DNA of 64,000 bases from Siphonodentalium dalli (taxonomy: Eukaryota > Mollusca > Scaphopoda > Gadilida > Siphonodentaliidae), in the NCBI GenBank assembly GCA_032622095.1, contig CP136064.1, positions 258,519,863 through 258,583,862 of the forward strand. Direction: 5' to 3'. Positions 14,068-63,830 of this stretch are shown in pieces (positions within the stretch are counted from its first letter, which is position 1; each line of letters starts with the position of its first letter). The translations under genes and the position numbers were made by a program. The notes below the pieces were generated by a model that did no database searches, was not told the DNA's origin, and was given only the letters and a program-made list of their open reading frames with translations.

Positions 14068-14467
14068 TTAACCCTTTACCCAACAAACCGGCCAAAACCG
14101 GCCAAATAAAGCTGCAACAGCCTAAATTATCTTGGGTCTGTCTCAATAAAACCATACAAATATGGATATCATTGGAACCGGCTCATTAACCACATTGTGA
14201 TGGTTATAGTTATGCCCTGTGCCAATGCATTCTCTTATATATGCGAGTCGACCATAGGTCGCCTCGCATATATAAGAGAATGCATTGGCCTAAAAAAAAT
14301 CTGTTTTTAACACTTTTTACCATTTTTTCTTACATTATTTAACAATTTTATAATTTTTAATGTGTTAAGCCAATGTATTCTCTTATATATGCGAGGCGAC
14401 CTATGGTCGACTCGCATATATAAGATAATGCATTGGCACAGGGCCCTTCTGTTGGGTAAAGGGTTAA
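14068..14467. mobile_element. TTAA hairpin MITE, shell a, two hairpin cassettes
   Basis: TTAA-CCCTTTACCCAACA at the left and TGTTGGGTAAAGGG-TTAA at the right. Inside are two near-perfect hairpins (14221-14292 and 14370-14437) reading CCAATGCATTCTCTTATATA-TGCGAGTCGACC then the complement. TTAA duplications and CCC/GGG ends match piggyBac-type elements. No coding capacity. Confidence 0.85.
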
Positions 14468-14830
14468 TAAATAAATCCACGAATCAGATATGGTTTGTCA
14501 TTGTTGAGTATATAATACTCGTTACTCAACCGTTGAATACAAATCACTCAACAAATTATCACTGAACGTGTTGAGTAGAGATTTTATTCAACAAAATTTT
14601 CAGTGGGCGAATTAAGGAGAGTATCACTCGAACTTTTCGACCATACCGGGCACTTGGCGCCAAACTACTTCCTCTAGTCAGAGAATAATTTACATGTAAT
14701 ATCTTCCAAACAGACCATTAACGGATACCATATCGGAATTTCATAAATTTCCTGATATTTCTGATTCGGTCGCTGATTCTGTATATACATGTATTATCCA
14801 GTTTAGTTTCTAGAATTCTTCCAACAAATA

Positions 14831-15316
14831 TTAAAGGTACTCAATCCGATAAAACTCCTCTCAATTACTATTTCAATGGCTTTGGGGGTCAAACATATTT
14901 GATTCGAGTCGAGGAAGTCACCCATCAAAGCTCAGATTTGTTAGATATCGATTTTAGAAATCTATTATTTTTCATTATCGGGAATCTTTCTGGCCCAGAA
15001 CTCAGTCAAAATTGCGTTATTATTACCTCTTGATTTTAGAGTTATCCATCCTTGTCTGTTTGAATTATGTTTTGGAGTACACATCTCGCGCAGGTTACGA
15101 AACTGACGGCAATTATTATTTTACTCATCTCGAGAAACTAACAAATTTCAAAAATCAATATCTAATAACTATGAGCTTTGTTTGATGGGTTCCTCGACTC
15201 GAATCAAATATTTTTTAACCCCAAAGCCAAAGAAATAGTAATATAAGACCCTCTGATCGGATTGTTGTTGTTGGAATCTGTTGAGATGGGGACCCTCTGT
15301 TCGGATTGAGTATTTT
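14831..15316. mobile_element. MITE copy B, AAAGGTACTCAATC family, fold-back
   Basis: GATTCGAGTCGAGGAAGTCA (about 14900) is mirrored by GGTTCCTCGACTCGAATCAA (about 15190). The centre contains CTATTATTTTTCA. Directly abuts copy C. Confidence 0.7.
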
Positions 15317-16020
15317 TAAAGGTACTCAATCCGATTCGATGGTCCCCCATATAATCATATTCCAACAAGAACAATTTTTTTTTTTTTTTATTAAATGCCG
15401 CTTCAGCTGTCAGAATCGATTAATTGCCCAAACATAATGCTAACCACAGTCAACTATAATATAACATTGCCCAAAACTTGTTGTTTATCAACATGTTGTT
15501 CGATGAAATTTTTGCCTTATTGATTTTAGAGTTATCCACCTTCGTCCGCAATTTGGTCCGAGACCTCGACTCGTCGACTTTTTGCTGGGCCACTATTAAG
15601 TCTCGATGATGAAAAATAATAGATTATTATTCGTGCTCCGACTGTCGGTGGGATAAGATGTCCCGGATTGAGCGCTCCTGGACATCGCCCATGCACCTGG
15701 CGATCGGATTACTGACTTCAGCGGACAATGGATCGTCTATAATCCCCGCTGAAGTCCTGCAGGCTCGTGTTGAGCTCAAATAAATTGGATCGCTGCCTGA
15801 GTCCTGACCTGGAATTTACACCGGTCACATCTTCAACACTTCATATAACGTACATGCATATCATTAAATTTCCAAAGTGGGTTGTATAGGGAAGGGGTTC
15901 CGCCCCTTCCCAATTCTCCCGGGGTTAAATCCCAAATCCCCAATAAAAAAATAAATAAAATAATTTGTTTTACCCCCGAATCCAAATAAATAGTTATTGA
16001 GAGGCATTTAATCGGATTAT
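15317..16020. mobile_element. MITE copy C, AAAGGTACTCAATC family, interrupted
   Basis: Starts AAAGGTACTCAATCCGAT at about 15319 and resembles copy A to about 15560. It is then interrupted by GC-richer unrelated sequence (15600-15940) before a terminal piece with CCCGAATCCAAATAAATAG and ATCGGATTAT. Confidence 0.6.
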
Positions 16021-16140
16021 GAGTCTTTGATTTTGAGTTTAGGCCTATTAGGCCTAAGTCGTAATTTCGAGTTTATGAAGTCGATATTTCGATTTTAATA
16101 GTCGATTTTTTTTCAACGTGTCCCGAATAAGCTTCCGTAC

Positions 16141-16304
16141 TCACTACTTAGATCAATCCGTCTGCAGTAGCCTATCCTGGCCCCACGGCGAAAACATCGG
16201 CCTTCTGTGGAACTGTCCCGTTCGCCCCCTTTTTTTTTTTATCTAACACGTTCCGTTTCAGTTCTGCAATCTTATTCCCAACTTTTGATTTTTTATTTGC
16301 GAGA
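16141..16304 (+). promoter_or_regulatory. Probable Mic10 5' UTR / promoter region
   Basis: The bases just before the Mic10 start are more GC-rich than their surroundings and contain no recognised repeat. No TATA box is evident. A pyrimidine-rich stretch at about 16229-16243 could be part of the 5' UTR. The transcription start cannot be placed from sequence alone. Confidence 0.35.
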
Positions 16305-16389
16305 ATGTCAGAAAGGACAAGTGCTCGATCGGAGGAAGAACTTGGTCATAAATGGGACAGATGTCTCTCTGACACGGGCATAAAACTAG
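16305..16389 (+). CDS. MICOS10: Mic10 exon 1 (start codon, phase 0 to 1)
   Basis: The ATG at 16305 opens 28 codons plus one base, ending CTAG|gtgttc. It holds the conserved Mic10 N-terminal block ELGHKWDRCLSD. The split codon G|CA gives Ala29 with exon 2. Confidence 0.9.
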
Positions 16390-25300: not shown

Positions 25301-28300
25301 GACCCGACCCTGTGTAAATATGTCCATAGCGCACTCAGATTTAGATTATTGAACTAATTGTCCATTAAGTTTGAATCCACAGAAACGTGCCATCCCATTT
25401 CTTCCATATATATATATGGAACATACATGTACATGAATTAATTCCATCGAATGCGCAACAAATGTACCATGCACATGCAGAGTACGTGTACCATCATCGG
25501 TTAGTATTTATAATAATAGCTTATAACCAAGGTGCGTGACCACCGACCTGACAGCTGATTAGAGACAATCAAACTGGCACGCTGACCAATATATACACAG
25601 GTGAAAAGCGGGCTGGTCTATCAGCGATTGCACAATAATATTGTTCGAGTTAATTGTTGAAAGGAAATCACCCATGACGGCATGACCCCAGATAAACATC
25701 TAACTTAACCGCAGAGCAAATTAGAATCCATACGACAATCAGGTGCTTGTACTAAATCATTTTTATCCAAAAGTTGAAAACCGTATAGCTGAGTATCCGG
25801 ATAGCCGTAATTCTTATCCGGCGAAGTATAAACACTCTATTGTTATCGCTGCCGGCTACAGCGAATGCGATCTTCGCCGGGTAATGTATAAACACCCCCT
25901 GAATGTGAGAATCCATTTAGTATAGAAATGTTAATTAAGAATTGTATAAAAAATACTCAACTTCCAGTCAAGAGACGAGCAATATTCTGACATCCATTTT
26001 TAATGTTTTGTTATCTGGATGATAACTTGAACAACATTTTGCATAATTTTATGATATTTGGTACATTGTCTATACAGTTGAGAAAGTTTCAGTAAAATCT
26101 GGTTTGTTAATTAATTATTTCTGATCGAGTTATGCCCCTTTCTGACTGGTTGATTATTTTGATGTCAGGATGATAAACTTAGTTCGCCTAGTTGATCTAT
26201 TGCCATGCGTTGGTGTCTGTGTGTGTGTCTGTCAACCATTCCATTTGGCACACACTACAGGCCACATCCCTTAACCAAACATCACCAAACTTCATATGGA
26301 TCCTCAAAGTGACCTCTGGATGGGAGCTTTATACCATATTTTCCGAATTTTGTAAAAAAACATGTAAAACATCTTGTATTCCATAGTTAACCCTTTACCC
26401 AACAGAAGGGCCCTGTGCCAATGCATTCTCTTATATATGCGAGTCGACCATAGGTCGCCTCGCATATATAAGAGAATGCATTGGCCTAACACATTAAAAA
26501 TTATAAAATTGTTAAAGAATGTAAGAAAAAATGGTAAAAAGTGTTAAAAAATGTTTTTTTTTTAGGCCAATGCATTCTCTTATATATGCGAGGCGACCTA
26601 TGGTCGACTCGCATATATAAGAGAATGCATTGGCACAGGGCATAACTGTAACCATCACAATGTGGTCAATGAGCCGGTTCCAATGATATCCATATTTGTA
26701 TGGTTTTATTGAGACATACCCAAGATAATTTAGGCTGTTGCAGCTTTATTTGGCCAGTTTTGGCCGGTTTGTTGGGTAAAGGGTTAAATCCATTGGCACA
26801 CTCTGCAGCTCACATTTATTGGAGAAATGTTTTGAACATTTATAGGTATTAAATTTGAATGGCAGCTATTTTGTAGTTTGCTCGTTCCATGACTAAATCC
26901 TTGTCACACCCTATATAATCATTATTTCCCATCCGATTGGTCCCTAACTTCATGTGGCTCTCCGGGTTGACCTCCAGTCATTGACACTATCATTATACCC
27001 CCCGCAACGAAGTTAGGGGGGGGGGGGTATACTGGAGTCAGCTTGTCCGTCCGTCGTCCGTCCATGGACACAAATTTGTCCGGAGTTTTTCTCAGTCGTT
27101 TTTTGATCAATTTCCGTGAAACTTGGTACAGACATCAACCACCATGGGAACCTGTGCACCTGCGATTATGACGTCTGTCAGACTTTTTTTGGTGGAGTTA
27201 TCCCCCCTTTTTCAACTTAGAAAATATTCGCAACATGTAACTTTTGTCCGAGCTTTTATTAGCTCACCTGAGACGAAGTCTCCGGTGGAGCTATAGTCAT
27301 CACTCCTCGTCCGTCCGTCCGTCCGTCTGTCCGTCTGTCCGTCCGTCAACTTTTTTAAAAACATCTTCTCCTCTGAAACCATCATACCGAATTGGTTCAT
27401 ATTTGGTGTGGATGTTCCCTAGGTGACTCTCATTCAGATTTGTTCAAATGAGGTCACTGGGTCAAATAGTTGTGAAACCAGGGCCATAACTCTATTCCTC
27501 CACAGTAATTCTTACAACAACTTCTTGTCCATAACCATTGTGCCGATTTAGCTAATATTTGGTATGGAGGGTCCTTGGGTGACTGGTGTTCAGATTTGTT
27601 CAAATGAGGTCACCCGGTCAATTAGTTGAGAAACCAGGGCCATAACTCATAGTAATTCTTACAATGACTTCTTCTACAAAAATATTGGGCCGATTTAGCT
27701 TATATTTGGTACTGAGGGACCTTGGGTGACTGGGAATCAGATTTGTTCAAATTTGGTCACTGGGTCAATTAGGGGCAGAGCCAGGGACATAACTCTAAAA
27801 ACCAAAAAATTACATTTTTGCATTTTGATCATATTTGGTGTGGATGTTCCCTAGGTGATTGTCATTCAGATTTGTTCAAATGAGGTCACTGTGTCAAACA
27901 GTTGCGAAACCAGGGCCATAACTATATTCCTCCTTGGTAATTCTTATAACGAATTCTTGTCAAGAACCATTATGCCGATTTAGTTTATATTTGGTATGTG
28001 GGGTCATTGAATGACTGGGGTTCAGATTTGTTCAAATGGGGTCACTGGGTCAAATAGGGGTGGAGCCAGGGCCATAATTCCCCAAAAAATAATAAAAAAT
28101 TCAGAAACTCCTTGATCAATATAACATACAAACAAAATTATCACCCCCCTCCACATTACTCAGAACCCCACCCTGCCCCCAACCAACAGCATTCCACCCT
28201 ATCTCACCTCCTAACTCACAGGTAAATAAAGTATTTTTTATTTAAATAAATTAAAAAACATTTAATTAAAATTTTGAAGAACTTGTGACATTACATCTTC

Positions 28301-38003: not shown

Positions 38004-38136
38004 CTAACCCTTTCATGACTGGTGCTTCCTGAATTTTTGCGAAAACCCTGTGCCAATGCATCCTGTTTTATATGCGAGTCGCCCATATATATAAGAGAAT
38101 GCTGCACCAGAGCAGCTCCCGCCATGAAAGGGTTAA
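38004..38136. mobile_element. TTAA hairpin MITE, shell b, deletion derivative
   Basis: CTAA-CCCTTTCATGACTGGTGC, TTGCGAAAACCCTGTGCC, a broken cassette (38051-38102), CTGCACCAGAGCAGCTCCC and CATGAAAGGG-TTAA. Confidence 0.75.
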
Positions 38137-43346: not shown

Positions 43347-43390
43347 ATTATATGAGAACATTGCTTTATGATAAGAGTTGAGATGCTGAA

Positions 43391-46400: not shown

Positions 46401-49400
46401 TAATTTCATTGATCATGAACAGGAAAGACATCGTAGAGAGAGGGACGGTCGCAGTCTCTGGCCACACCCGCGTGATGAACTGCTTCACTATTAAAGGTTC
46501 CTTGGTTAACTGTGGAAAGAATTGAGACATATATAGTAGTGATGTGTGGCTTTTAAATTCATTTCGGTTTTGGTATGGTTTTTGTAGAAAACCAGGTTTT
46601 GGTTTCGGTTATGGTTTTACTGAATACACCAATTACTACAGTAATGGTCGAATTAATCGACCTCTTAACCAAAGCAGAATTATGGGTAACTTTTCAGGAT
46701 TTAGTCGGAAATATGGCTTGTTGCCATTCATCGGAAAGCTCTCCCCGAGAGCTTTCTGATGAATGGCAACAAGCCATATTTCCGACTAAATCCTGAAAAG
46801 TTACCCATAATTCTGCTTTGGTTAAGAGGTCGATTAATTAGAGCATTACTGTATATGCATAGAGCAGATGGTATAATATTTGACATAATATTTTAGCCAT
46901 TTTCCATATTTCATATTTAATGGCAATACAGTAATGCCCTAAATCGACTCCTTAACCACAGCAGAATTATGGGTAACATTTCAGGATTTAGTCGGAAATA
47001 TGGCTTGTTAGCCATATTTCCGACTAAATCCTGAAATGTTACCCATAATTCTGCTGTGGTTAAGGAGTCGATTATTTAGGGCATTACTGTATTGCCATTA
47101 TCGCTCATATCACACCCAAATGTTCCAAATTGAAACTGCTACTTGTAACAGTGGCAAATAGCAGCTGCAAAAGCATGCACTAACTTTTGCGACATTCAGA
47201 ACCAGCGATGTCAGTTAATTGAAAACAAAAGAATAGGTTTTATAGAATATATCAGTTGTGGTTTGGTTTTGAAATAAAACTGAAAGAAAACCAAGAAACC
47301 GTAAAACCGCACGTCACTAATATATATTAAAAGGCCCGTAAGGCATTGGCTAGGTGAATAGAAAGTCAATCAAATTCTGATGATCAAATAATAAATATCA
47401 ATATTTGCCAGAATATTATACACAGTGTTACAAATAACTTTTTCTTTTGTTTTTAAAATAAAATAATGCTGAGTGATGCCAATGCCGCTGCAAATAAGTT
47501 ACTGAGGAAATACGCGGTGCAACATATCTGACTATAATCAACATTGTCTGTCTTTGTTATCTTTCGTTGCGGAAAATATATTAATACCTAGATCATGAAA
47601 TTAACCTCTACTCTGACTAACACCTGTAGATATCATATTCCACCAGTACAAAACCTTGGAACTATTTGATGTTTCAACCCCTTCTGACAGGGAACTTTAT
47701 AACATTGAACAAACAAGGCAGGCAATATATTTCTTTGTTAGTACTTGTTCCTCAATAATCTACTTCACTTTAGGGGGTGATCCCAGCTCGAGATCGCCTG
47801 CTTTTTTGTGAGCTTATATCACAATAAACATTGAATAATTACCCAGGAGTGTTAACCCTTTACCCAACAAAGCGGCCAAAAACGCCCAAATAAAGCTTCA
47901 ACAGCCTAAAATATCTTCGGTCTGTCTCAATAACACCATACAAATATGGATATCATTGGAACCGGTTCATTGACCACATTGTGATGGTTACAGTTATTCC
48001 CTGTGCCAATGCATTCTCTTATATATGCGAGTCGACCATAGGTCGCCTCGCATATATAAGAGAATGCATTGGCCTAAAACAATTCTTTTTTAACACTTTT
48101 TACCATTTTTTCTTACATTCTTTAACAATTTTATAATTTTTTCTTACATTTTTCTACATTCTTTGACAATTTTATCATTTTTAATATGTGTTAAGCCAAT
48201 GCATTCTCTTATATATGCGAGGCGACCTATGGTCGACTCGCATATATAAGAGAATGCATTGGCACAGTGCCGTTCTGTTGGGTAAAGGGTTAAGGTGGGA
48301 ATATATTCCAGCACCGATACTCATGGGATTTTGTTTTAGCAAATGAAAGTTCCAGAATTGATAGTCACTATGATTCAACCACAATTCTATTTGAATCCGA
48401 TTTTTAGAAATATCGTTTCTTAACTTTCAAACATACTATAACCTTGTTTTGACTTACCCAATTATTTCGCCTAAATTTCAACAATGCCTGATATTTCAAA
48501 CATGATGGTGTTCAAACAATTTGATTATATAAAGTCTTGAATAATCTAGCCATCTGTATGACTAACCTGATTCTTGCATGATAGTTGGTACGTGTTGAGC
48601 TTGTAGCATTCATTTTCACATCCATACACCTTCTTGACAATAAAAGGCCCAACTTCCTGTTCATCTTCGACATCGCTCCAGTACTTGCCAACATTCTGTA
48701 AATGAGAAGTAAGCCCAATTAGCACTGCACACTGAAATCAGACTGGCTGCCACAGCCAGTGCAGTATGTTGTTATACTTTCATATAGTATAAAGTTTACC
48801 AAATCCAGTGCAGTATGTTGTTATACTTTCATGTAGTATAAAGTTTACCAAATCCAGTGCAGTATGTTGTTATACTTTCATATAGTATAAAGTTTACCAA
48901 ATCCAGTGCAGTATGTTGTCATATTGATTGAGTCACTTTTGCTTTGAGAAGTGACTTCAACTTTGTTATAACCCCCGCAACGAGTTGTGGGGGTATACTG
49001 GAATCAGCTTGTCTGTTGGTTTTTTAATTTGGCACAGGTATTTAATACCATGGGAACCTGTGCACCTGCGATTATGAGGTCTGTTTGATATTTTTTTGTG
49101 GAGTTATCCCCCTTTTTCGACTTAGAAAATGTTCAATACAGGTGTATACCTTTGTCTGAGCTTTTATTCCTACAGTTTTTGTTTAATTTTTTAAAAACTT
49201 GGCACAGATATTTAATACCATGGGAACCTGTGCACCTGCGATTATGAGGTCTGTTTGATATTTTTTTGTGGAGTTATCTCCCTTTTTCAACTTAGAAAAT
49301 GTTCAATACAGGTGTATACCTTTGTCTGAGCTTTTATTCCTACATTTTTTTTTCAATTTTTTAAAAACTTGGCACAGATATTTAATACCATGGGAACCTG

Positions 49401-52400
49401 TGCACCTGCGATTATGAGGTCTGTCTGATGTTTTTTGTGGACTTATCCCACTTTTTCGATATGGGGGTATACCTTAGTTCCACCTGGGACAGGCCCATCT
49501 CTAGTTTAATTAACCCTTTCATGATGGGTGCAGTGCTGGTGCAGCATTAAAGATCCAGTGCCAGTGAATTCTCTAATATATGCGAGTCTCCCATAGGGAG
49601 CCTCGATTATTAAGAGAATGCACTGGCTTACAAGGTCAAGGTAAATATTGATAGGCCAATGTATTCTCTTATATATGTGAGGCTCCATATGGAAGACTTG
49701 CATATATATAAGAGAATGCATTGGCACAGGGTTTTCGCAAAATTTCAGTAAGGGTTAATTTCGCTTTCAGCAATCGAGCCAAGTATGTTCTAATTATAGT
49801 GAGTATGGTCTGGTTGTCAAAATATAAATGGTAGAAACATTCAGTTGAGTCGCAGAGAAGGAATTTTTGTTTGACTTTTATGCTGCATCTATGGACTGTT
49901 ACTCATTACAATTGACGATTGTTCACAGTAGTGAAAGTCACCTGACTTTATAAAATTGTGCAATTTCTTTGCCAAATAACTGGACTGTGCCTTTAAAGTT
50001 ATATGAAACACTCTGGCAGGATGATCAAATAGAAATGGGGAATAATCTTGCTCAAAGTAATTATGTTTACGATTATTAATTCCAATTGACAACACACACA
50101 ACATCATTCTGATATATTAACAAAATGCAATGACTCGCGATGGTGAAACTTATGTTTGTTTGTTGCCGATAGATGCGTCCCGAACCAGATGTAAATATTT
50201 ACAATTGGGCATAGTTCAGACGATGATTTCTATGGAGTCGTATGGTAGATTTCTTTGAAATTTTCGCAGATGTTTGTAAAATGCTACATTCCCCATATTG
50301 CCATTACTCCTGAGTATTAAATAGTCAGTTTCACACACCCGAACAAGGCCATAATATGTCTTTAATGTAAACAAGAGCATCACTAGGGCAGGGCAAAATA
50401 CACCCATGGTAAGTCCAACAAAGGGCCATAACTCTGGTAAAAATTGGCAGGCTGAACACAAACTCAAACTTGACCTGTATTTGGACCAGTAAACTCACAT
50501 ACGAGATTTCATTCCATTCAGTTCAGACTTACTAAAGTTATCATCCGGAAACAAATATTGAGTGCAAATTCCAACAGAAAATCATGACGCTGGTGAAAAT
50601 TGGTGGGCATAACCTGAATTCAAACTTAACCTATATTTGGTGCTAGTAAACCCACGTACCAAATTTCATTCCTTTCAGTCAAGACTATCTGAAGATATCA
50701 TCAGAAAGCAAAAGCAAACGGACGGACCAAAACAAAATGCATCCCATTTTTTTAAAACGGTCGTATAAAAATCGCTTAAATAAGTATTATTGAGGCATAT
50801 AAAGTTCATGTATATTATGTATTTCTCAATCTTAGTCCCTGGAATGTGACATTATGAGCAGCTACAGGCAAGTATTGAAAACACTACTGTCATTTGCAGA
50901 ATGAGTTCCCCAGAGGTGAATTTAGGATGCTATCCCACACAGTGGGCTAGCATCACCAAGTTCACCCTTTGGGAACCTTATTCTGCATGTCCTCTTCCTC
51001 TGGGAAGTATTTATAGTCACAAATTTTTAGTTTTAGTTACTTTTTTCCCTTATGCTCAGTTTCTATATCCCCTAATTTGCAGAAGATAAAACGCATAATC
51101 GAGGTGAAGCTGGGTGAACATCACCAACTGGGGAACTTCAATCTGATCCTAGGTCTCCCAAGCAGTTGAGCATAAGCAGAATGAGGTTACCAGAGGGTGA
51201 ATTTGGTGACGATCGCCTGCTGTCCGCCGGGATAGTGTCACTAAATTCATCCTTTTGGGACCTCATTCTGCAATTGTCAGACACTATTTGCAGGCTTGGC
51301 TACTAGATTTAGTTTGATGCCTGATGATTGTTTGTCCAGAGAATGGTATTAGGAGGTTTTATTTACTTTACAAAGTTCAATTATAGACATTGACTGACAT
51401 TCAGGATGTTTTGAAAATAACACATAGGGGACCACAATGCTAATATATCACAAAATATTATACAAGATAGGTTTTTTTTTTAGCTCACCATGCAGAAGAG
51501 ACAAAGTATACAGTAGTGCTATAATAATGTTTAGAATGAATTTATGGCTTAAAACTGTCAACTAATTTTGACTAATGACGTATACATGTAGTAACGTTGC
51601 CACTTGTGATCCAAATAAAACCTCAAGTTTTTATGTTGAAAATAATTTTGTAACGAGATTGGAGTATCAATCAAAAATACTGCTATACTACTTACAGTTA
51701 TATACACCTATAATTATTTTTAACTAACTTCGGCATGTTGCTATGCTGAGACTTTAACCCTTTCTGTACCAAATAGATTCTCCCACTCAGTTATAAAAGT
51801 ATGTTCAGGTAATAAAAGCAGACAACGACAAATAGACAAAAAATGCAGAAGGATTCTTAATCAATAGTGGGAAATGTTCACATACAAGTTCAACAAATAA
51901 CCTTTGTAGAACTTATTATCTGAATATTTTCTAAGGGATAATTACTTGTAAATGAGTATTTAGTATGATAAGTGTGAAGATAATTATCCTGTGTTTCACG
52001 TTGAAATAGCAATACTGGATATACTACCTTGTTGTTAGCTGTTTGTTCTTCATGCAACATGACCACTGTTGAACAATTTTGGTCGTAGACAAGCCGCCAG
52101 AAATCCACAACCGTGTTTCGAAGAGGAGTCTGTGTGATGATTCGTGAAAACTTATCTTTGTCACTCTGTCAAAATCGAGAGAGAAGAGAAATCAAAGTTG
52201 GTTATGTCATGCATGATCAATATATGTATGCAATATTGAACTTGTAAAATCAGACAGAAATTCTGAGAGTAATATATGTCAGCTTAAAGGTCCACTTAAT
52301 TTTCGAACCCCCATATTTAAAAAAAAATGTATGCCATATTATATACCATTTGAAAGAGAAAGCACCAAAACATTGTATTGTCAACTCTATAGAGTTATTC

Positions 52401-55400: not shown

Positions 55401-58400
55401 ACTTTTTAAAATAAATCCCCAAGTGTACGACAGGGCTATCTCACAGCCAAATTTGATCTGGAAAAACCCAGATCTACAACAGCTAGTTAAATACATTTCC
55501 CGCTCACAAAAATCCATTCCCCCATTCATTCACCAGTTTAAATTATTTTGATATTATGTACAAATCAAATAAACGCGATGTCATCCTTTAATAACGTGTC
55601 GCATGTATCAGGTGAAGGTCATTCTTCAGTTACCTTCACCTTTAGGGTTCCACGGTGTACTCGCTCCCCGACTCTAGAACACATTTAGCTCCCTGATTCC
55701 TATATATATGTATATGTGTGAATAACAGCGTTTCTTATAGTATTTTATCAAAATATAGACCTTACTGAAATCAAAAATGGATTATATCGAGCAGTAGTGG
55801 TTTATTTTTCCAATATGAGGCATCCTGAAAATTAGTGTCAATCCTCAAAATAAAGCCAAAAAATTTAGCTTTTTTTTCAATTTTACTAGCTAATGCATGT
55901 TGTATAACTGAAGTATGTCCTTATATACCATAATATTACTAAATTGAAGAGGAAATGTTAATATACATTTTGAGAGGGATATATTGTCCAATTTTAAACC
56001 CTTTTCATGCAGAATTTGGCAATTTATAATAAATATTTACCAAAATTAACAGAAAATAATTTATTTTTTTTAATAGCAATGTAAAGCAACCATAAGTCAA
56101 TTTAAATATCGAAACATTATGATACGACATCAGACACAGCCTCAGGCATGAAATTTTACCAGATGGCAGGGCCTACTGTCTGTTTAACAAAGCTGCCATG
56201 ACAGTTTTGCACGACAGTAACTCTAGTGGTGATGCAACAGGTGTACGACAGGGCTATCTCACAGCCAAATTTGATCTGGAAAAACCCAGATCTACAACAG
56301 CTAGTTAAATACATTTCCCGCTCACAAAAATCCGTTCCCCCATTCATTCACCAGTTTAAATTATTTAGATATTATGTACAAATCAAATAAACGTGATGTC
56401 ATCCTTTAATAACGTGTCGCATGTATCAGGTGAAGGTCATTCTTCAGTTACCTTCACCTTTAGGGTTCCACGGTGTACTCGCTCCCCGACTCTAGAACAC
56501 ATTTAGCTCCCTGATTCCATTAGAGCCTGGTGTAGAAAGACATACTGGTCCTGCAGCAAAGTAATAGTTCCATGTTAATTGGTTATTGTAGTCCCTGTCA
56601 ATTTACCATTAGTCATTTAAATAGCTAATATAAAAACTCTAAAATATCCACCTAATACCGAGGCGAGTCACATGAATTTAAGGTTGCAGGCATACATATG
56701 TGTATCCAGGGGGTATACACAAGCAAACATTTCCTCGAAAATCCAGCTGTGACCCTTATAAAATTAATTTAATTAAATAGATAAATATATATAAAAAAAA
56801 GTTCCCAGACCCCTGTGGAAACAAATTTCCGAGATGCCTTCCTAAATGCACCTGGAATGGAGTTTATCACATGAATATTCTGCAGTATATCCTTACTTGT
56901 TTCTGCACCATGTTTACACGTTGCGACCTCAGGTCCTTGACACATTTATAAATATCCAGCACACCATCCGTGGAACCTTGCTCAAGAAGATAGTCGAGGG
57001 CTATAAATGTACCAGTTCGACCTATTCCAGCACTACAAAATAAGATAAAACATACATTTAGCCTAAAATTAGTTTCAATTAGTCCCTGTTAACATGATTT
57101 TTGTTTCCTTCGTGAGCCGATATTGCAATAAACATTGATTGATTACCCATGAGAAATTCTATGCTTGTACAGACAGCCTAGTTTTGAGTCTTTATTATCA
57201 CAGCTAGGGAGGCTTCTAACGCATTCTGCTGCCCTACCCCTCTCCGCCCTATACACACCCCTGCTATAATGTCATTGTACTGTATAAGAACATATAAAGT
57301 ACCATGACAGGGGTATGTATAGCCTAGCTATAGGGATGGCGCATAAAGGCAGCAGCGGAGTACGTTACAAGAAAACCATAGTCAGACATGGTAACGCCCT
57401 CAAGATCATATTATTAGGCATATATAAATCATAATATAAAATATACTGGTTTCATGAATGCACCACCCCAGTATTCCATAAAACAACTAATCCTTCAAAT
57501 TGTTACAACAAATATGGCTTATCACTGAAGCTTTCTCATTCACACACCATGCAGAAAGCCTCTAAATGCAGACCATAAATCTACTTATCGGATTAAATAC
57601 AGCCCCGATACTTCGAAATACGACCTTTAGTCTACATTCCATACATACTTCATCAGCAATGTTAGCTGTTATATTATGCATTGTGTTCCTGTAATAAAAT
57701 TTTCAAGAGTGGCTCAGCCATTGTTCACGCCTAAATATCGAAATCAATTAACGTGGTCATAAAAGATACATACTGCAACAATGAGACATACGCCAAAATA
57801 CATCCGCGAATATATACATCCTGCACGAAGTTTAACTCGTACGCAATATAATGAGTATGTTATTAATCAAAGTTACCCCATAGCTCCTATGACATCGCCA
57901 GATCAGCCTTGCAGTATACACCCTGTAACAAGGCCCTGTGCTTTAACTCTTTCATGACGGGAGCTGCGCTGGCGCAACATTAAAGACCCTGTGCCAACGC
58001 ACTCTCTTATATATGCGAGTCAACCATAGGTCGCCTCGCATATATAAGAGAATGTATACGCCTAACATTTTTTATATTTTTTTCTTACATTCTTTAACAA
58101 TTTTTATAATTTTTTATCATTATTTCTTACATTCTTTATCAATTTTTATAATTTTTTCTTACATATTTATAATTTTTTTATCATTATTTATTACATTCTT
58201 TAACTATTAATATCATTTTTTTTATTTTTTCTTACATTCTTTAACAATTATAAAAAAAATATAAAATTTGTTAGGCCAATGCATTCCCTTATATATGCGA
58301 TGCGACCTATGGTCAACTCGCATATATAAGAGAATGCATTGGCACAGGGTTTTCGCAAAAATTCAGGTATTTCCCATCATGAAAGTGTTAATAATTATTT

Positions 58401-60895
58401 ATATGTACTGACCTGCAGTGTATGACTACTGGGCTGACTGATAATTTCATCTCGTGTTTTACGACATCGTGGAACTGTACAAGCTCGCCAGCTGTCTTAG
58501 GTACACCATGATCGGGCCATGCTGTGAAGTGATACTGCTTCAGGTTCCTGCGCAAATCTGTTGATATCTGTACCAATAATCAAGGTGCCGACTGGTGAAA
58601 ACTAGAGGCGGGACGGACCCAGTGGGACTAAGCAGTGGCGTAGGAGCAGGTACGGCCGGACGGTTTTGTCCGTACCAATATTCACAGCTGTGAAGTTTTT
58701 TGTTGTTACAAGCGTGGGAAAGGTGCGATTGGCGATAGTCATAAAACACAGAATGTGAAACTTCTATGATGCCATGCTGCTTAATTTATAGTTCTTATCG
58801 AAGAAACGTCGTTGACTATATCATGTTATCCCTATCTGTCTTCGATAATTAAGGCCCCGGGCCATAAATTCCCAGCATGACATATAAATTGATATAATAT
58901 GTATCTCAAATTCCCTTTCCCCGCTTCTCCCATAATTTAATTTAACTTAATTTATTTATATTGTACTGCTCTTTTACTGTCTCAAGTTAGCAGATATGTG
59001 ATTGTGTCAAGTTAGTAAAAAATGTCAAGATTAAGATAGAAGACATGTGTACCACATTGCGGCCATGATTCCTGGAACCACCATACATGTATGTCTCATC
59101 TATTATTCAAGCTCTATATATTCATTGGTATGATATATATCTCTTCCATTCAGCAAAATTAATTATCCATCGTCGTTCCTGTATTCGTGGAATTTTCTTT
59201 TGGAGGAGTAATTTTATCGTGGAAAACCGCTTTAAGTATTGGTGATTAATTTGTACTGCAACATTGTTTGTCTTATTTGTGTGACACGTGCGTCGGGACA
59301 TGATTCATTCAGATGCTATACATGCATGGTTGTTATACCGGTGAGTATTGATGCATGTTTCATTCTTTTCTCCCAGCATGTGTAATGTAACATTGGTTAC
59401 GCCAAAATGCACCAGAAAGCGCCATTTCAATATTGAATATTAAAAAAATTCCCAATTTCGGAAGTGGGGACACCCCCTTCCATACCATCCTCCCTTCTTG
59501 ACGCTCCACGCGCCTCGGAGCCGCGCAAGCGCAGCTATGGAATTATGCCTATGGGCCGTAGGAATACTTATACCCTTCCTACGCCTCTGCTAAGGAAACC
59601 CCCCCACAGTGCAATTGGGCAATTGTTGCAATTAAGGGTAGTTATATAGTTAGTGGATTCCTATCTGGTCGTACAATTCCCGGCAGAGTTCAAATAACAA
59701 CTATCAGTCAAAAAGGCATACTTTATTAACATGGGCAAGACATGCATCACAGGTCCATTATGGAGTAAGCTGGTATGCTTGGTAGGATACAGCATGCCAC
59801 TTTAAGAAAACAGCATAAGATTTACTTTGGTATTTGTTTGGAAGCCAAGCACCAGTAAATGTGGTTTACATTAGTATTTGATTCCTGCAAGCTGGTGTGG
59901 CTTTAACCTGGACAATATTACAACCAAACAACAGCAAAACCATTACTACCTCTATACTGGACCAGGTATGCACCAACTGAGGTGTATTAGAATTAGGTGA
60001 TTTTATAATGAGGAGCATAGCAGATAGAGTTGTCTCTCTTGTAATGTTCATTTGTATATAGCAGTATAATAAAGACATCCACTTGAATGAACATTACAGG
60101 AGGGCAAATCTGCATCCGCTACATATTAACCCTTTACCCAACAAACCGGCCAAATAAAGCTCCAACAGCCTAAAATATCTTCGGTCTGTCTCAATAGAAC
60201 CATACAAATATGGATATCATTGGAACCGGCTCCTTGACCACATTGTGATAGTTACAGTTATGCCCTGTGCCAATGCATTCTCTTACATATGCGAGTCGAC
60301 CATAGGTCGACTCGCATATATAAGAGAATGCATTGGCACAGGGCCGTTCTGTTGGGTAAAGGGTTAACATATGTTTTTCAAAATGAAACACAAGGAATAC
60401 AAAACTATGCTGCTTGTGAAAAATTCCGTTGAAAAAGGGGGATAACTCCACTAACAAAAAAGACGGACGAGCCTCATATAAATATGACTCCTTCTATACT
60501 ATTAATTATCTGTCGTCTGCTTATATTACCAGTACATCCCTGCAGATCAATAATAGGCCATTCCGATGCACACTTTTTAACTGACTGGGAGAATCCAATT
60601 AGTATAGAAAGGGCTAATAATTGTTTATACATGTATGTACCATTTATTATAGACATGGTTAAAGTGGTACCTTGTTTGTTCGTTTGTTTTTCGATCTGAA
60701 TGATAATATCCCCACATGTGCCCATGTCCGAACAGTGCAGTTTAATTTTCAAATGAACATTGTACAAACCTCGATGATATCCAGTGTTCTGACTGTATGT
60801 CCCGTGTGAACATCCATGTCTGACAAATGAGTTTTGTATTCATCAAATTCTTTGGTCTCTGTCACGTTGTCAGGCCAGAACTGCTCGCATTTTTC
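43391..60895 (-). CDS. Receptor-type protein tyrosine phosphatase, C-terminal tandem catalytic region (11 exons, 5' incomplete)
   Basis: Exons, in transcript order: 60895-60770, 58567-58413, 57032-56897, 55096-54947, 54367-54268, 53759-53686, 52165-52028, 48695-48567, 46509-46355, 45035-44900, 43462-43391. They total 1371 bases, 456 residues and TAA, with every junction GT-AG and in phase. The product dephosphorylates phosphotyrosine at the inner face of the plasma membrane. Domain 1 (residues 1-140 seen, N-terminal part missing) has CEQFWP, the acid loop TAWPDHGVP (57-65) and the catalytic loop [10 protein letters not shown] (92-101). A linker and domain 2 follow: [25 protein letters not shown], then WPE (352-354) in place of WPD and HCMNGADRCG (386-395). 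Domain 2 keeps Cys and Arg of the CX5R loop but has changes typical of weak or inactive second domains. The tandem layout is that of receptor PTPs. The exact subtype cannot be told without the ectodomain. Confidence 0.93.
43470..44440. other. RPTP last intron; no gene recognised
   Basis: AT-rich intron sequence between exons k and j. Frames at 43599-44022 lack motifs. Confidence 0.5.
44441..44559. mobile_element. CAGTAATGC MITE, one arm with terminal remnant
   Basis: CAGTAATGCTCTAATTAATC through GGAAAGCTCTC, then directly GCATTACTG-TA. Most of the second arm is deleted. Confidence 0.85.
44597..44860. mobile_element. TTAA hairpin MITE, shell b, two cassettes, next to RPTP exon j donor
   Basis: TGAA-CCCTTCCATGACAGGAGC at the left; degenerate right end GATCATGACATGGTTTA. 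Variant hairpins at 44642-44715 and 44735-44795 have loops GTCTCCCATAGGAAGCC and complement. Confidence 0.78.
44900..45035 (-). CDS. RPTP exon j (domain 2, CX5R loop)
   Basis: Acceptor atcctcccaag, donor gttagt. It begins (M)[19 protein letters not shown] and ends RDLLIRTP. The loop retains Cys and Arg, but Ala-Gly and Gly positions are changed. A TTAA-family MITE ends 38 bases beyond the donor. Confidence 0.9.
45190..45586. mobile_element. TTAA hairpin MITE, shell b, split by a CAGTAATGC MITE
   Basis: TTAA-CCCTTCCATGATGGGAGC to CATGAAAGAG-TTAA. The first cassette is interrupted inside its stem by 45262-45388; the second is at 45470-45537. Confidence 0.8.
45262..45388. mobile_element. CAGTAATGC MITE inserted in a hairpin cassette
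   Basis: Inserted at TA within GTGCATTCTCATATA/TATATGTGAGTC. Internally deleted: the right arm begins abruptly at GGTTAAGGAGTCGATTATTG. Confidence 0.82.
45686..45896. mobile_element. CAGTAATGC palindromic MITE, full fold-back
   Basis: TA-CAGTAATGCTCTAATTAATC to AATTAGGGCATTACTG-TA around AGCTCTCTGAGAGCT. Frames on both strands containing [10 protein letters not shown] are translations of it. Confidence 0.9.
46355..46509 (-). CDS. RPTP exon i (domain 2, WPE loop and HC)
   Basis: Acceptor tctttccacag, donor gtaagtta. It encodes [20 protein letters not shown] and ends SVLIAHC plus two bases of Met. Glu replaces the catalytic Asp of the WPD loop. Confidence 0.92.
46638..46851. mobile_element. 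CAGTAATGC palindromic MITE, full fold-back
   Basis: TA-CAGTAATGGTCGAATTAATC to AATTAGAGCATTACTG-TA around GAAAGCTCTCCCCGAGAGC. It lies about 130 bp upstream of RPTP exon i in transcript orientation. Confidence 0.9.
46929..47089. mobile_element. CAGTAATGC palindromic MITE, short form
   Basis: CAGTAATGCCCTAAATCGAC to TATTTAGGGCATTACTG; the centre is shortened to ATATGGCTTGTTAGCCATAT. Flanking TTTAATGGCAATA and TATTGCCATTA extend the inversion beyond the element. Confidence 0.88.
47100..47850. other. RPTP intron segment; no gene recognised
   Basis: No exon or known element was identified between the MITEs. Confidence 0.45.
47852..48293. mobile_element. TTAA hairpin MITE, shell a, two cassettes
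   Basis: TTAA-CCCTTTACCCAACA to TTGGGTAAAGGG-TTAA. Hairpins at 48004-48073 and 48196-48265. The central spacer has a duplicated TTTTTTCTTACATT-type unit compared with other copies. Confidence 0.88.
48567..48695 (-). CDS. RPTP exon h (domain 2, KYWSD block)
   Basis: 43 codons, phase 0, acceptor catttacag, donor gttagt. It begins [18 protein letters not shown], equivalent to KCAxYWP of domain 1, with divergent residues. It is the least conserved exon, but its phase and splice sites fit. Confidence 0.85.
48757..48925. repeat. Minisatellite of about 52 bp, 3-4 copies, beside RPTP exon h
   Basis: Units with CCAGTGCAGTATGTTGTTAT, ACTTTCATATAGTATAAAGT and TTACCAAAT. Starts about 60 bp upstream of the exon h acceptor. 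Confidence 0.9.
48965..49505. repeat. GTATACTGG-type repeat, three tandem units
   Basis: CCCCGCAACGAGTTGTGGGG and GTATACTGGAATCAGCTTGT, then three units of about 180 bp with CCATGGGAACCTGTGCACCT and TGCGATTATGAGGTCTGT. It ends CACCTGGGACAGGCCCATCT. Confidence 0.85.
49510..49758. mobile_element. TTAA hairpin MITE, shell b, two cassettes
   Basis: TTAA-CCCTTTCATGATGGGTGC to CAGTAAGGG-TTAA. Variant hairpins at 49556-49625 and 49652-49725. Confidence 0.82.
49760..50880. other. RPTP intron segment; no gene recognised
   Basis: 50380-50720 contains a degenerate two-unit repeat (GTAAACTCACATACGAGATT and GTAAACCCACGTACCAAATT). The rest shows nothing recognisable. Confidence 0.45.
50884..51299. mobile_element. 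GAGGTCCCC double-hairpin MITE, diverged
   Basis: Hairpins at 50898-50986 and 51177-51273 with several substitutions. The internal region is in standard order. The right end reads ACACTATTTGCAGGCTTG. Confidence 0.8.
51754..51978. mobile_element. TTAA-CCCTTTCTGT element, diverged
   Basis: TTAA-CCCTTTCTGTACCAAATA at the left. GGGAAATGTTCACATACAAG, TAGAACTTATTATCTGAATA and GAGTATTTAGTATGATAAG at the right. It lies about 50 bp downstream of the RPTP exon g donor. Confidence 0.7.
52028..52165 (-). CDS. RPTP exon g (domain 2, DFWRLVYDQ block)
   Basis: 46 codons, phase 0, acceptor gattttgacag, donor gtagta. It encodes [20 protein letters not shown] and [10 protein letters not shown], the DFWxMV block of PTP domains. 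Confidence 0.94.
52170..53580. other. RPTP intron segment; no gene recognised
   Basis: AT-rich sequence. GGTCCACTTAATTTTCG (about 52289) and AAAATTAAGTGGGCC (52627) are inverted and may mark the ends of a roughly 350-bp MITE (52288-52642). Frames at 52710-53341 lack motifs. Confidence 0.5.
53587..53714. repeat. 64-bp tandem duplication covering the 3' end and donor of RPTP exon f
   Basis: TACAACACAGTATAGCTCTA recurs at 53587 and 53651. The copy at 53587-53650 holds the last 29 bases of exon f and a second GTATG donor. Use of the second donor would run into TAG within the added bases. Confidence 0.85.
53686..53759 (-). CDS. RPTP exon f (domain 2, YINA block)
   Basis: Acceptor aacttcag, donor gtatgt. 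It encodes [20 protein letters not shown] followed by VFMP. Its last bases and the donor are duplicated 64 bp downstream. Confidence 0.93.
54268..54367 (-). CDS. RPTP exon e (linker to start of domain 2)
   Basis: Acceptor ctttttag, donor gtaaga. It encodes [20 protein letters not shown] and then [12 protein letters not shown], matching the KNRYxNILP start block of PTP domains. Its last base is completed by exon f to give Ser223. Confidence 0.92.
54535..54688. mobile_element. GAGGTCCCC MITE, single-hairpin form
   Basis: CAAGCCTGCAAATAGTGTGT, one hairpin (54567-54660), then AATGACAGACACACTATTTC. The internal region and second hairpin are absent. Confidence 0.82.
54778..54824. repeat. Two units of the 29-bp minisatellite, inverted
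   Basis: TATGGTGGGTCCTTCTGAATT and GATGATGGTGGGTCCTGCTGA are the reverse complement of the array at 61909-62278. They join directly onto the MITE half at 54825. Confidence 0.75.
54825..54929. mobile_element. CAGTAATGC MITE, right arm only, next to RPTP exon d donor
   Basis: GAGAGCTTTCCGATGAATGG through TATTTAGGGCATTACTG-TA. The left arm is replaced by minisatellite units. Confidence 0.85.
54947..55096 (-). CDS. RPTP exon d (end of domain 1 and linker)
   Basis: 50 codons in phase 0, acceptor tttgctgcag, donor gtgaga. It begins [16 protein letters not shown], the last helix of a PTP domain, and ends [12 protein letters not shown], the inter-domain linker. The acceptor and the first 46 coding bases recur as partial copies upstream. 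A MITE half ends 17 bases past the donor. Confidence 0.93.
55138..55224 (-). repeat. 87-bp tandem copy of RPTP exon d start with its acceptor
   Basis: The 87-bp unit at 55051-55137 recurs at 55138-55224, and a third partial copy starts at 55225. Each full unit carries the ctgcag acceptor and the first 46 coding bases of exon d. If spliced, the upstream copy would read [20 protein letters not shown] and stop, so it is a decoy rather than a usable exon. Confidence 0.85.
55423..55700. repeat. Intronic duplication, copy 1 (about 278 bp)
   Basis: Starts GTGTACGACAGGGCTATCTC and ends at AGCTCCCTGATTCC. Nearly identical to 56241-56519 in the same orientation. Both lie in the intron between RPTP exons c and d. 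Confidence 0.9.
56241..56519. repeat. Intronic duplication, copy 2 (about 279 bp)
   Basis: Direct repeat of 55423-55700 with only a few differences. Followed at once by the exon d fragment at 56521. Confidence 0.9.
56521..56580 (-). repeat. Further partial copy of RPTP exon d start with acceptor
   Basis: The first 30 coding bases of exon d (minus strand from 56550), the ctgcag acceptor and upstream intron are repeated with few changes, directly next to the second copy of a 279-bp intron repeat. Confidence 0.8.
56897..57032 (-). CDS. RPTP exon c (domain 1, SAGIGRTG loop)
   Basis: Acceptor attttgtag, donor gtaagg. It opens with [20 protein letters not shown], the catalytic P-loop with the invariant Arg, and ends [12 protein letters not shown], the usual Q-loop region. 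Confidence 0.95.
57040..57940. other. RPTP intron segment; no gene recognised
   Basis: No exon or clear element. 57210-57390 contains GCCCTACCCCTCTCC and an approximate inverted counterpart, possibly an old inverted repeat. Confidence 0.4.
57943..58391. mobile_element. TTAA hairpin MITE, shell b, two cassettes, expanded spacer, next to RPTP exon b donor
   Basis: TTAA-CTCTTTCATGACGGGAGC to CATGAAAGTG-TTAA. Hairpins at about 57993-58055 and 58274-58343. The spacer (58060-58260) holds several TTTTTTCTTACATTCTTTAAC units. Confidence 0.85.
58413..58567 (-). CDS. RPTP exon b (domain 1, WPD loop and HC)
   Basis: Acceptor ttggtacag, donor gtcagt, 51 codons plus two bases. It carries [19 protein letters not shown] with the general-acid Asp, and ends VVIHC. 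Ser of the catalytic loop is split AG|T with the next exon. A TTAA-family MITE ends 21 bases beyond the donor. Confidence 0.95.
58568..60120. other. RPTP intron segment; no gene recognised
   Basis: 58600-58690 (GTGGCGTAGGAGCAGGTACG) resembles a dispersed repeat. The proline-rich frame at 59464-59649 has no known motif. 59780-60110 shows no element ends. Confidence 0.4.
60126..60367. mobile_element. TTAA hairpin MITE, shell a, single-cassette form
   Basis: TTAA-CCCTTTACCCAACA to TTGGGTAAAGGG-TTAA with one hairpin (60268-60338), whose loop is a full palindrome GTCGACCATAGGTCGAC. The central spacer and one half of each hairpin are gone. Confidence 0.88.
60480..60632. mobile_element. CCCTTTCTAT element fragment
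   Basis: CCTTCTATACTATTAATTATC and GACTGGGAGAATCCAATTAG then TATAGAAAGGGCTAA. It lies 138 bp downstream of the RPTP exon a donor in transcript orientation. Confidence 0.55.
60770..60895 (-). CDS. RPTP exon a (domain 1, KCEQFWP block)
   Basis: 42 codons, phase 0 at both ends, acceptor atttcaag, donor gtttgt. It encodes [20 protein letters not shown] and, at the end, [10 protein letters not shown]. KCxQYWP is a standard PTP-domain block just upstream of the WPD region. No exon 5' of this was found in the window. Confidence 0.9.
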
Positions 60896-61152: not shown

Positions 61153-61364
61153 CAGTAATGCTCTAATTAATCGACTCCTTAAACACAGCAGAATTATGGG
61201 TAACTTTTCAGGATTAGTCGGAAATATGACTTGTTGCCATTCATCGGAAAGCTCTCCCCTAGAACTTTCCGATGAATGGCAACAAGCCATATTTCCGACT
61301 AAATCCTGAAAAGTTACCCATAATTCTGCTGTGTTTAAGGAGTTGATTAATTAGAGCATTACTG
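61153..61364. mobile_element. CAGTAATGC palindromic MITE, full fold-back
   Basis: TA-CAGTAATGCTCTAATTAATC to AATTAGAGCATTACTG-TA around GAAAGCTCTCCCCTAGAAC. Confidence 0.9.
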
Positions 61365-61573
61365 TATATATTGAAGATTGTTTGTTTGGTTGACAACAAT
61401 TAAAAAGCAAGTGTTTGTATGACACATTCAAGAACAAATATATTTTATATAATTATGTTAATAATGATGTCGCTGGTGTCTACAAAAAGGGGGATATCCA
61501 TCTCAATTATGGCTGGTTTGCAACAACCAACACAGCCGTTGTTAACGTATTTCACAATCTATGAATATAGACG

Positions 61574-61807
61574 TTAACCCTTTCAGTGCCAGGGGCCGAT
61601 CTCATCGGCCCTAATTTACGGTCTGTAAAATCGGCCCTAAAAAAATAAAAAAATAAAAAACAATAACAAATGATGAAAAATTGTTAGGCCAATGCATTCT
61701 CTTATATATGCGAGGCGACCTATGGTCGACTCGCATATATAAGAGAATGCATTGGTACAGGGTATATGGGTTGATACAAAAATCGGACCTGGCACTCAAA
61801 GGGTTAA
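61574..61807. mobile_element. TTAA hairpin MITE, shell c, single cassette
   Basis: TTAA-CCCTTTCAGTGCCAGGGG to GGCACTCAAAGGG-TTAA. The shell is distinct from a and b (GGCCGATCTCATCGGCCC inside) yet carries the same hairpin cassette at 61688-61756. Confidence 0.85.
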
Positions 61808-61904
61808 TGAAGGAATTCAACACATAATATTGCATGGCTTTTCCTCGAAATATTCATCTCAGCCAAACACAGCGAAAATTACTTTTTTTCTTCTTTGCCC
61901 TATA

Positions 61905-62280
61905 CCAGCATGATCATAGCAATTCAGCAGGACCCACCATCATCATAGCAATTAAGCAGGACCCACCATCATCATAGCAATTCAGCAGGACCCACCAGCT
62001 TCATAGCAATTCAGCAGGACCCACCATCATCATAGCAATTCAGCAGGACCCACCAGCTTCATAGCAATTCAGCAGGACCCACCAGCTTCATAGCAATTCA
62101 GCAGGACCCACCATCATCATAGCAATTCAGCAGGACCCACCAGCTTCATAGCAATTCAGCAGGACCCACCATCATCATAGCAATTCAGCAGGACCCACCA
62201 GCTTCATAGCAATTCAGCAGGACCCACCATCATCATAGCAATTCAGCAGGACCCACCATCATCATAGCAGGCAGGACCAC
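61905..62280. repeat. 29-bp minisatellite, about 13 copies
   Basis: The unit AGCAATTCAGCAGGACCCAC is followed by CATCATCAT or CAGCTTCAT. The two 9-base variants interleave irregularly. Confidence 0.95.
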
Positions 62281-62289
62281 TTAGCCTAT

Positions 62290-63450
62290 AACCAGGGGTG
62301 GCAATTTAGAGGTGCCAAATCAGATCGGTCATCTAACTAACTGGATGTATCGGGTGTACTGAGATATATGATAGAACTAACGTTTAAAGATTCCCGGTAT
62401 TATTTAACACAAAATTTTGCATACCGCATATACCATTATTATGGCACACTGAAATGAGTTATACTTGCTACCACCATCATTCGTACTGCACAGGTATAGC
62501 GAAAATCCACAAAACTACCCATTTGTAATACCAAACTGCAAGGCAGAGTTCTGTCCCCTCGCTATGCTGGTCTGGCCACTGCCATCACTTATATATACAT
62601 AATTAAATATATCATTTTTTATCCAAGAGTTTTGCCGATTATAATTCATTCTGGTTCTACTAGCCAATTTCCAAATGAATATGGATAGTTCGGGATCTCA
62701 AAAGTCAAGTCCTAGCTAAAAAAATGCTTTCCTCACATTATGTGTATGTGGTGTTGGGCCAATCGTGGTCAGGCCAGCGAATCAGGGACTGAACTCTGCA
62801 TTACAATTTGAAGTAGTATGTCGAAAACGATCGAACAATCTCATAATTAAGAATGCTCTTTGTTATCTACTGCTTTTGGGCAACAGAATCATCAACGCTC
62901 TTTATCAGAGATGATCATCAGAATTTTTGCTTGGCTGAGCCTGACACAAAAAATTCAAAACGTGTTGAAATTCGTCCTTTGAAAGACGATATTTGTCCAT
63001 CAAGGCCTTCTATTACGGTATGTTCATACTCTGGCATTTTCTCATATAAAACCCTATATGGTGCCAGAATATGAACGGCAACATACACATCAAATGTATA
63101 TTCACAAAGCTAACAACACGAGAAGTAAAATTTTGATAGTTCCACAATGTAACGGTGCTAATAACACACTGCCTTAAAGTACCTGTATTATACTATTATT
63201 CATCCTTGCGAGATAATTGCATGCTATTGACAAGCAAATTTTGATAGCATCGCTACAAGTACCAGACTAATAGTGGAACTACATAGTTTTTTGTTACTTC
63301 TCATGTAGTTAGTTGTGGTATGGTACGGACACTGGTACGGATGCTTTTTTTATAAGCATTTTTGCCTTTGATTTCTGGCATATTGCAGCTATCTATACTG
63401 TTATGCCTGCAAAATAATGCATTGCACACTTTCCAGTATAAGAATGTACC
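62290..63450. other. No gene recognised; expected location of upstream RPTP exons not confirmed
   Basis: I looked on the minus strand for the DFWRMVWEQ-type and NRYKDILP-type blocks of PTP domain 1 and did not see them. The plus frame at 62853-63074 has no known motif. Confidence 0.45.
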
Positions 63451-63452
63451 CA

Positions 63453-63830
63453 TAACCATTTCATGACTGAAGATTCCTGAATTTTTGCGAAAACTCTGTG
63501 CCAATGCATTCTCGTATATATGCGAGTCGACCATAGGTCGCCTCGCATATGTAAGAGAATACATTGGCCTAACATATAATTTTTTATAATTGTTAAAATG
63601 TAAGAAAAACTGAAAAAAAAAAGGGTCAAAGAATGTAAGAAAAAATGATAAAAATTGTTGAAGAATGTAAGAAAAAATGATAAAAATTGATAAAGAATGT
63701 AAAAAAAAAATGATAAAAATTGTTAAAGAATGTAAGAAAATATTATAAACAATGTTGATAAAGAATGTAAAAAAAGAATGATAAAAATTGTTAAAGAATG
63801 TAAGAAAATATTATAAACAAGAGCACGCCG
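63453..63830. mobile_element. TTAA hairpin MITE, shell b, left half with expanded spacer
   Basis: CATAACCATTTCATGACTGA and TTTTTGCGAAAACTCTGTGC, one hairpin (63500-63569), then about seven units of AAAGAATGTAAGAAAAAATG with ATAAAAATTGTT. The second hairpin and right end are absent; at 63821 it meets GAGCACGCCGTCGGGGCGTGG. Confidence 0.78.

Follow-up and report, generated by a model that had tools for sequence, protein, structure and literature searches.

A 69-bp hairpin within four sets of transposon ends in Siphonodentalium dalli: probable joining of one core unit to new ends

The 64-kb window considered here is the whole stretch of DNA that was analysed (64,000 nucleotides of the scaphopod Siphonodentalium dalli, contig CP136064.1, positions 258,519,863 to 258,583,862 of the forward strand), and a profile search finds in it 13 small elements with 21 copies of a 69-bp hairpin, some of them damaged. 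Judged from their sequences, four mutually unrelated sets of ends on nonautonomous DNA transposons (shells a, b, c and d) enclose this hairpin. We consider it probable that a core unit built around the hairpin (the cassette) is common to at least four families of such small transposons with unrelated ends, and that recombination between the hairpin arms joins cassettes to new shells. The hairpin consensus is letter-for-letter identical in shells a, c and d, though their ends cannot be aligned.

The core unit, its shells and their numbers

The core unit has the order CCCTGTG, hairpin, CCTAACA, AT-rich spacer, TGTTAGG, inverted hairpin, CACAGGG; in every shell the border lies sharply at CCCTGTG, and the borders on the two sides are inverted. 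Eight of the 13 window elements have two hairpins in opposite orientation around a spacer and five have one. An earlier note on this DNA had described the shared unit as a cassette of about 70 bp, but the unit held in common is larger and includes the spacer and the inverted partner hairpin. The type-1 hairpin (GCCAATGCATTCTCTTATATATGCGAG TCGACC ATA GGTCGC CTCGCATATATAAGAGAATGCATTGGC) is near-perfect and folds with DNA parameters at -35.4 kcal/mol (z -15.6; opposite strand -37.8, z -16.0); the values for two type-2 copies are -18.3 and -23.4. A single constant T.C mismatch close to the apex gives the hairpin a polarity, and in most full-length copies the T arm faces the element end (border CCCTGTG) and the C arm faces inward (CCTAACA). 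The two types are defined by their apices, i.e., type 1 (TCGACC-ATA-GGTCGC) is accompanied by an AT-rich spacer with TTCTTACATTCTTTAACAATTTT repeats, a motif whose 16 places in the window all lie inside hairpin-bearing elements, and type 2 (TCTCCC-ATA-GGGAGC) by a short spacer. A divergent type (GTCGACC-ACA-TGTCGC) with a similar AT-rich spacer is seen within a degenerate tandem repeat at locus L028 (positions 5893, 7260 and 8224).

Shells a and c have TTAA on either end, as do shell b copies when single-base decay is allowed, and the inverted tips of these shells start with CCC or CCY (shell a CCCTTTACCCAACA, b CCCTTTCATGATGGGAGC, c CCCTTTSAGTGCCAGG). Shell a ends are found genome-wide at 91,612 exact matches to TTAACCCTTTACCCAACA (reversed control 0), and shell c carries a single hairpin both in its window copy and in L002, L015 and L028. 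Shell d, with 18,299 exact GTGACCYGCCATATCAAATCCAGTCG ends in the genome, has neither the TTAA target duplication nor the CCC tip of the piggyBac type, its tip being GTGACC. The earlier note had already set it apart as a non-TTAA shell, and the AATT on both sides of the window copy bears this out. Fourteen rows of shell d flanks were read, and as two pairs are duplicated loci they represent 12 independent insertions; 10 of these have matching 4-bp AT-only flanks (ATAT in seven, AATT in two, AAAT in one) and two have no match. Both ATAT and AATT equal their own reverse complement, which leaves AAAT as the one case that can by itself tell a duplication from an inverted repeat; that the flanks vary from copy to copy points to a duplication. 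One shell d element (L063:566-1096, G000:C1:4549522-4551349) is interrupted at its hairpin apex by ~1.2 kb of inserted sequence; the insert has CGG/GGC-rich inverted ends and contains a 177-aa open reading frame with a match to Pfam Bcl-2 (E 1.7e-13).

The elements are abundant throughout the source genome (2,226,750,531 bases in 9 contigs). The 20-base arm CCAATGCATTCTCTTATATA has 39 window matches at up to three mismatches, against 0.02 expected from shuffles, and 157,048 + 157,062 = 314,110 exact matches genome-wide (reversed control 0). A 200-kb sample, made up of 20 stretches of 10 kb placed at round positions along all nine contigs, contains 29 hairpins, which scales to ~323,000 in the genome (Poisson 216,000-464,000) and to ~1% of its DNA. 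In the window and this sample together, of 53 loosely matched tips, 47 are followed inward by a hairpin within 400 bp (shell a 18/21, b 18/19, c 7/8, d 4/5), which makes the cassette a regular component of the elements; among the six tips without one, two are not shell a, one is 135 bases from the end of its stretch and one precedes a decayed CCTGTGCCAATG. Shell-a elements also occur in the units of a large tandem array at G000:C1 ~742-926 kb, with a spacing of ~14.5 kb and then ~11.17 kb. Exact-pattern searches of viral and genome contig collections and a blastn search against phages gave no matches, which, with one pattern or query each, is weak evidence of absence.

Cassette exchange, constraint and rival explanations

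The congruence of cassette and shell was assessed by counts of joined combinations. Genome-wide, and with at most one mismatch, the shell b end is joined to type 2 at 3,095 places and to type 1 at 1,046. A search for the shell a end joined to a type-2 outer arm gave 34 matches, of which only three have the full type-2 sequence; the others are 26 GGTAGAC and three GGGCGAC, one base from either type, and two GCGAGAC that resemble apex deletions. Type-1 spacers are related across shells, with scores above the shuffle maximum for a and b1, i.e., shell b with type 1 (40 vs 36), a and d (35 vs 23), b1 and d (43 vs 35) and a and c (28.5 vs 27), and none of 200 shuffles attains the observed score in these four pairs. 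Spacers of a and b2 (shell b with type 2) score 12.5 vs 11.5, and no clear relation is seen between the type-1 and the type-2 spacers within shell b (p 0.195).

Three loci look like products of recombination within hairpin arms. In the shell-a element L086 the second hairpin combines a type-1 inner arm with a type-2 outer one. L087 has a shell-a end with its TTAA, next AGATC and then a type-2 shell-b cassette; 181 bp later the same shell-a end appears again (81 bases, one difference), now with a type-2 arm before it. L088 is alike, with a unit of 70 bp in 2.2 copies. In both sets of direct repeats (181 and 70 bp) the arm that precedes the shell-a end is of type 1 in the first unit and of type 2 in the second. 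Together the three match what would be left by unequal arm recombination after a shell-a element had inserted beside or in a type-2 cassette. The window element at 60126 has its two hairpins joined into one, and deletions that end in the hairpin were noted, by eye and without a control count, at 38004 in the window and in L002, L028 (at 9358), L059/L060 and L061. Single-strand arm copies spaced 97 bp apart at G000:C1:544218-544722 are perhaps a short tandem product as in L088.

As far as the sequences can tell, cassette exchange between transposon families is thus well supported. The earlier note had offered either exchange or strong constraint as the cause of the shared hairpin; the two types in shell b, the common consensus, the related spacers and the recombinant copies favour exchange, and constraint is also visible, in shell a and in the paired apex changes described below. 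We propose that elements would insert next to or into each other's cassettes, and that their near-identical hairpin arms would then recombine by crossing over, conversion or template switching, the occasional result being a cassette within a new shell. In a few cases the joined element could then be amplified by any transposase able to recognise its new ends. We are less sure why the hairpin is near-constant: it may aid transposition, e.g., as a second transposase-binding palindrome or as a cruciform, and mutual conversion among copies may also keep it so.

That the inner hairpin varies less than the outer ends, as the earlier note had it, holds for shell a, where it was tested in nine copies (L002 and L007 were dropped from 11, having been found via the arm sequence). 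Variants shared by at least two copies affect 2 of 1,173 hairpin bases and 34 of 1,553 shell bases (p 6e-7), private variants number seven in the hairpin and 27 in the shell (p 0.008), and the spacer has 20 in 640. At the apex, type 1 has 119,192 exact matches genome-wide and type 2 has 3,288, the 14 other combinations of the four varying bases making up 1,237 of 123,717 (1.0%). In the window alignment (19 hairpins, 15 distinct, 500 shuffles) 92.0% of cells are paired vs 88.8% in shuffles, and 15 cells are changed on both sides vs 5.8, a value that no shuffle reaches. Pairing is retained upon apex change, with few independent compensations. Repeated recombination between copies could yield part of this constraint-like pattern.

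Several observations count against joining by arm recombination, or against a constraint that goes with it. No cassette was found at 37 piggyBac-transposase loci (17 examined with their flanks and 20 by a 351-bp upstream probe; best stray match E 0.47), nor was any autonomous partner with the cassette found there. The recombinants L086-L088 are rare and not amplified, and they therefore show a possible route and not founding events. There is no TTAA or other duplication at the cassette border inside any shell. Hairpin and shell do not differ significantly in shell d (p 0.50 for private and p 0.23 for shared variants), in a count that took one hairpin for shell. As for the compensatory changes that the earlier note had proposed to score, the excess of two-sided cells speaks for them, but only four pairs show two-sided change, a number within the range of shuffles (mean 3.0; four attained in 113 of 500), and the two apex pairs may be one single event.

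A search with PF13843 gives at least 128 piggyBac transposase matches (116 of 649 candidates scored), many of them with open frames of more than 500 codons, so the genome has transposases that are, or recently were, active. A long shell-a element, L035, was considered as an autonomous copy and ruled out, its extra length being a nested noncoding insert. Several of the autonomous piggyBac ends have a palindrome directly behind a tip of ~16 bp (shuffle p: L037 0/300, L072 0.003, L041 0.013, L069 0.027, L030 0.087), an arrangement also given for piggyBac and piggyBat ends, where a CRD dimer binds it, in two publications (PMC7351741, PMC11707139). Among the shells, c has a palindrome of its own behind the tip (p 0.003), b has one in a single copy (p 0.016; ~0.2 in two copies and 0.21 in a fourth), and neither a (p 0.14 and 0.56) nor d shows one. 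As shell c, and probably b, thus have tip palindromes of their own, the idea that the shared hairpin is simply the tip palindrome of each family was rejected, and it is probably an extra module. Our best guess is that it has a cis role in transposition.

It is possible, if doubtful, that the hairpin is itself a palindrome to which piggyBac-type transposases bind with their C-terminal domains, and that the families have it in common because one transposase group needs it. The CRD-dimer palindromes of those publications (PMC7351741, PMC11707139) and the tip palindromes of several autonomous families in this genome suit this idea, but in shell c, and perhaps b, the hairpin would be an additional site, shell d is not of the TTAA type, the hairpin is far longer than known sites, and the 37 transposase loci are without the cassette. 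We think it rather unlikely that the hairpin is a selfish recombination module, a transposon parasite whose long palindromic arms provoke breaks and recombine with nearby cassettes, so that it crosses families and target-site classes; if true, it would be handed from one set of ends and its transposase to another.

Simple descent, in which a single ancestral element kept its hairpin under strong selection and its ends diverged past recognition, would account for the TTAA and CCCTTT common to three of the four shells and for a hairpin that varies less than the shell. We regard it as improbable, given that shell d differs in tips and target sites, that a fully identical consensus lies in shells that cannot be aligned, that recombinant copies exist and that shell b holds both cassette types, where the b elements with type 1 already weaken it. 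There is likewise only a small chance that the core (CCCTGTG...CACAGGG, with a piggyBac-like tip) is itself mobile and transposed into four families, i.e., a nested insertion. The sharp CCCTGTG border in all shells, inverted at both sides, and the shell d borders TTTTTTTA|CCC and GGG|TAAAAAAA would suit it, but no duplication flanks the core inside shells a or b, and a free TTAA form has at most 342 copies (the matches to TTAACCCTGTG) vs the 119,192 exact type-1 apices. The core as a free TTAA element was accordingly rejected, with no opposite-strand pair among the 100 matches listed of these 342. That the hairpin is kept as RNA, as a small interfering RNA or microRNA-like precursor, is very unlikely, for although the very stable fold (-35.4 kcal/mol, z -15.6) and the paired apex changes would agree with it, an Rfam search of the window gave no match at gathering score and DNA-level causes account for the same palindrome.

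Elements in the window

All 13 positions that the earlier note had named hold a hairpin or a damaged copy of one. Shell a, with TTAA and CCCTTTACCCAACA ends, is found at 14068..14467 (+; inverted hairpins 14221-14289 and 14369-14437), 26387..26787 (-; inverted hairpins 26417-26485 and 26566-26634), 47852..48293 (+; inverted hairpins 48005-48073 and 48195-48263) and 60126..60367 (+). The last does hold a hairpin as the note had said, but a single hybrid one (60269-60337), in which the left half comes from one hairpin and the right half from its inverted partner.

Shell b copies had been credited with a variant loop, which is right for four of them. These are the type-2 elements at 31526..31809 (+; hairpin 31576-31644, with unrelated sequence replacing the other half), 44597..44860 (+; short spacer, inverted hairpins 44645-44713 and 44741-44807), 45190..45586 (+; a hairpin at 45375-45440 whose left arm is split by an insertion, and the inverted type-2 hairpin 45468-45536) and 49510..49758 (+; inverted hairpins 49560-49627 and 49655-49725). 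Type-1 hairpins with an AT-rich spacer are found instead at 57943..58391 (+; hairpins 57993-58061 and 58275-58343) and at 63450..63818 (+; hairpin 63500-63568, right end not found; named at 63453 in the note), and the element at 38004..38136 (+; deleted hairpin 38052-38105) is too damaged for a type call. Shell c has one element, at 61574..61807 (-; TTAA, CCCTTT[G/C]AGTGCCAGG ends, single hairpin 61688-61756), as has shell d, at 37177..37622 (+; GTGACC ends, inverted hairpins 37227-37295 and 37503-37571, AATT at 37173-37176 and 37623-37626).

Two other hairpin families are present in the window, one of 91-bp palindromes, some paired (CAGAATGAGGTCCCCAGAGGGTGAATTT; 24066, 29312, 29602, 37752, 42166 and 42466), and another with TTTAGTCGGAAATATGGCTTGTTGCC (43114, 45746, 46700, 46963 and 61214). 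A TTAA family with TTAACCCTTTCTATACTA-type ends was seen without the cassette at 23839, 30699, 36414 (-) and 51754, one of them with TTATCCC. Exon-like pieces of a protein tyrosine phosphatase lie at 56867-57088 (-) and 44864-45232 (-) (Pfam E 3.3e-15 and 5.4e-06).

Comparison with known systems

KolobokP of bivalves shares with shells a-c a TTAA target duplication in animal genomes, but Kolobok ends are 5'-RR...YY-3' (PMC9587614) and those of shells a-c are CCC...GGG, a tip difference by which membership was ruled out. The highly conserved domains of short interspersed elements (SINEs), such as the V domain in the MER6 miniature inverted-repeat transposable element (MITE), are similar in that one domain is common to different mobile elements and can hitch-hike in a DNA transposon; that domain is SINE-derived, and the abstract mentions neither a hairpin pair nor exchange via hairpin arms (PMC6887750). 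The ends of piggyBac and piggyBat resemble those described here in their short tip followed by a subterminal palindrome, their TTAA target and their CCC tip, and differ in that their palindromes, in the same publications (PMC7351741, PMC11707139), are shorter than 20 bp and serve one family's own transposase, whereas a 69-bp hairpin is found here across differing ends.

The clear precedent for a shared interior with differing ends is that of the CMITEs of the coral Acropora (Wang et al. 2010), and a literature search on such cases, mostly without full texts, gave no other. These are TTAA MITEs in six families of terminal inverted repeats (TIRs) with a common internal region of 75 bp whose sequence is conserved more strongly than the TIRs (PMC2872659); the authors could not explain this conservation and suggested that the internal region has a role in transposition. 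The same arrangement, TTAA MITEs with different TIRs around a better-conserved internal region, is found here, and the likeness extends to piggyBac-like CCCTTT tips, to one CMITE with the internal region of another family and to tandem arrays. CMITEs are however ~100 bp long with an estimated ~1,600 copies (A. millepora), vs 230-450 bp and ~300,000 hairpins here, the word hairpin occurs 0 times in the main text of that paper, and a 60-bp CMITE consensus has no detectable similarity to the window and the extracted loci (best match E 1.9). In S. dalli the unit is also present in a non-TTAA shell.

MITEs are usually classified by their ends, which are taken as conserved; here it is the interior that is constant and the ends that appear to be exchanged, in elements whose hairpins make up ~1% of a 2.2-Gb genome. 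If it is true that the arms allow a change of transposase, MITEs could outlive the loss of any one transposase. For the coral elements, with their ~1,600 copies, the available text proposes no route seen in sequence, while here recombinant copies are readable, and transposase switching becomes directly testable by counting joined combinations within one genome.

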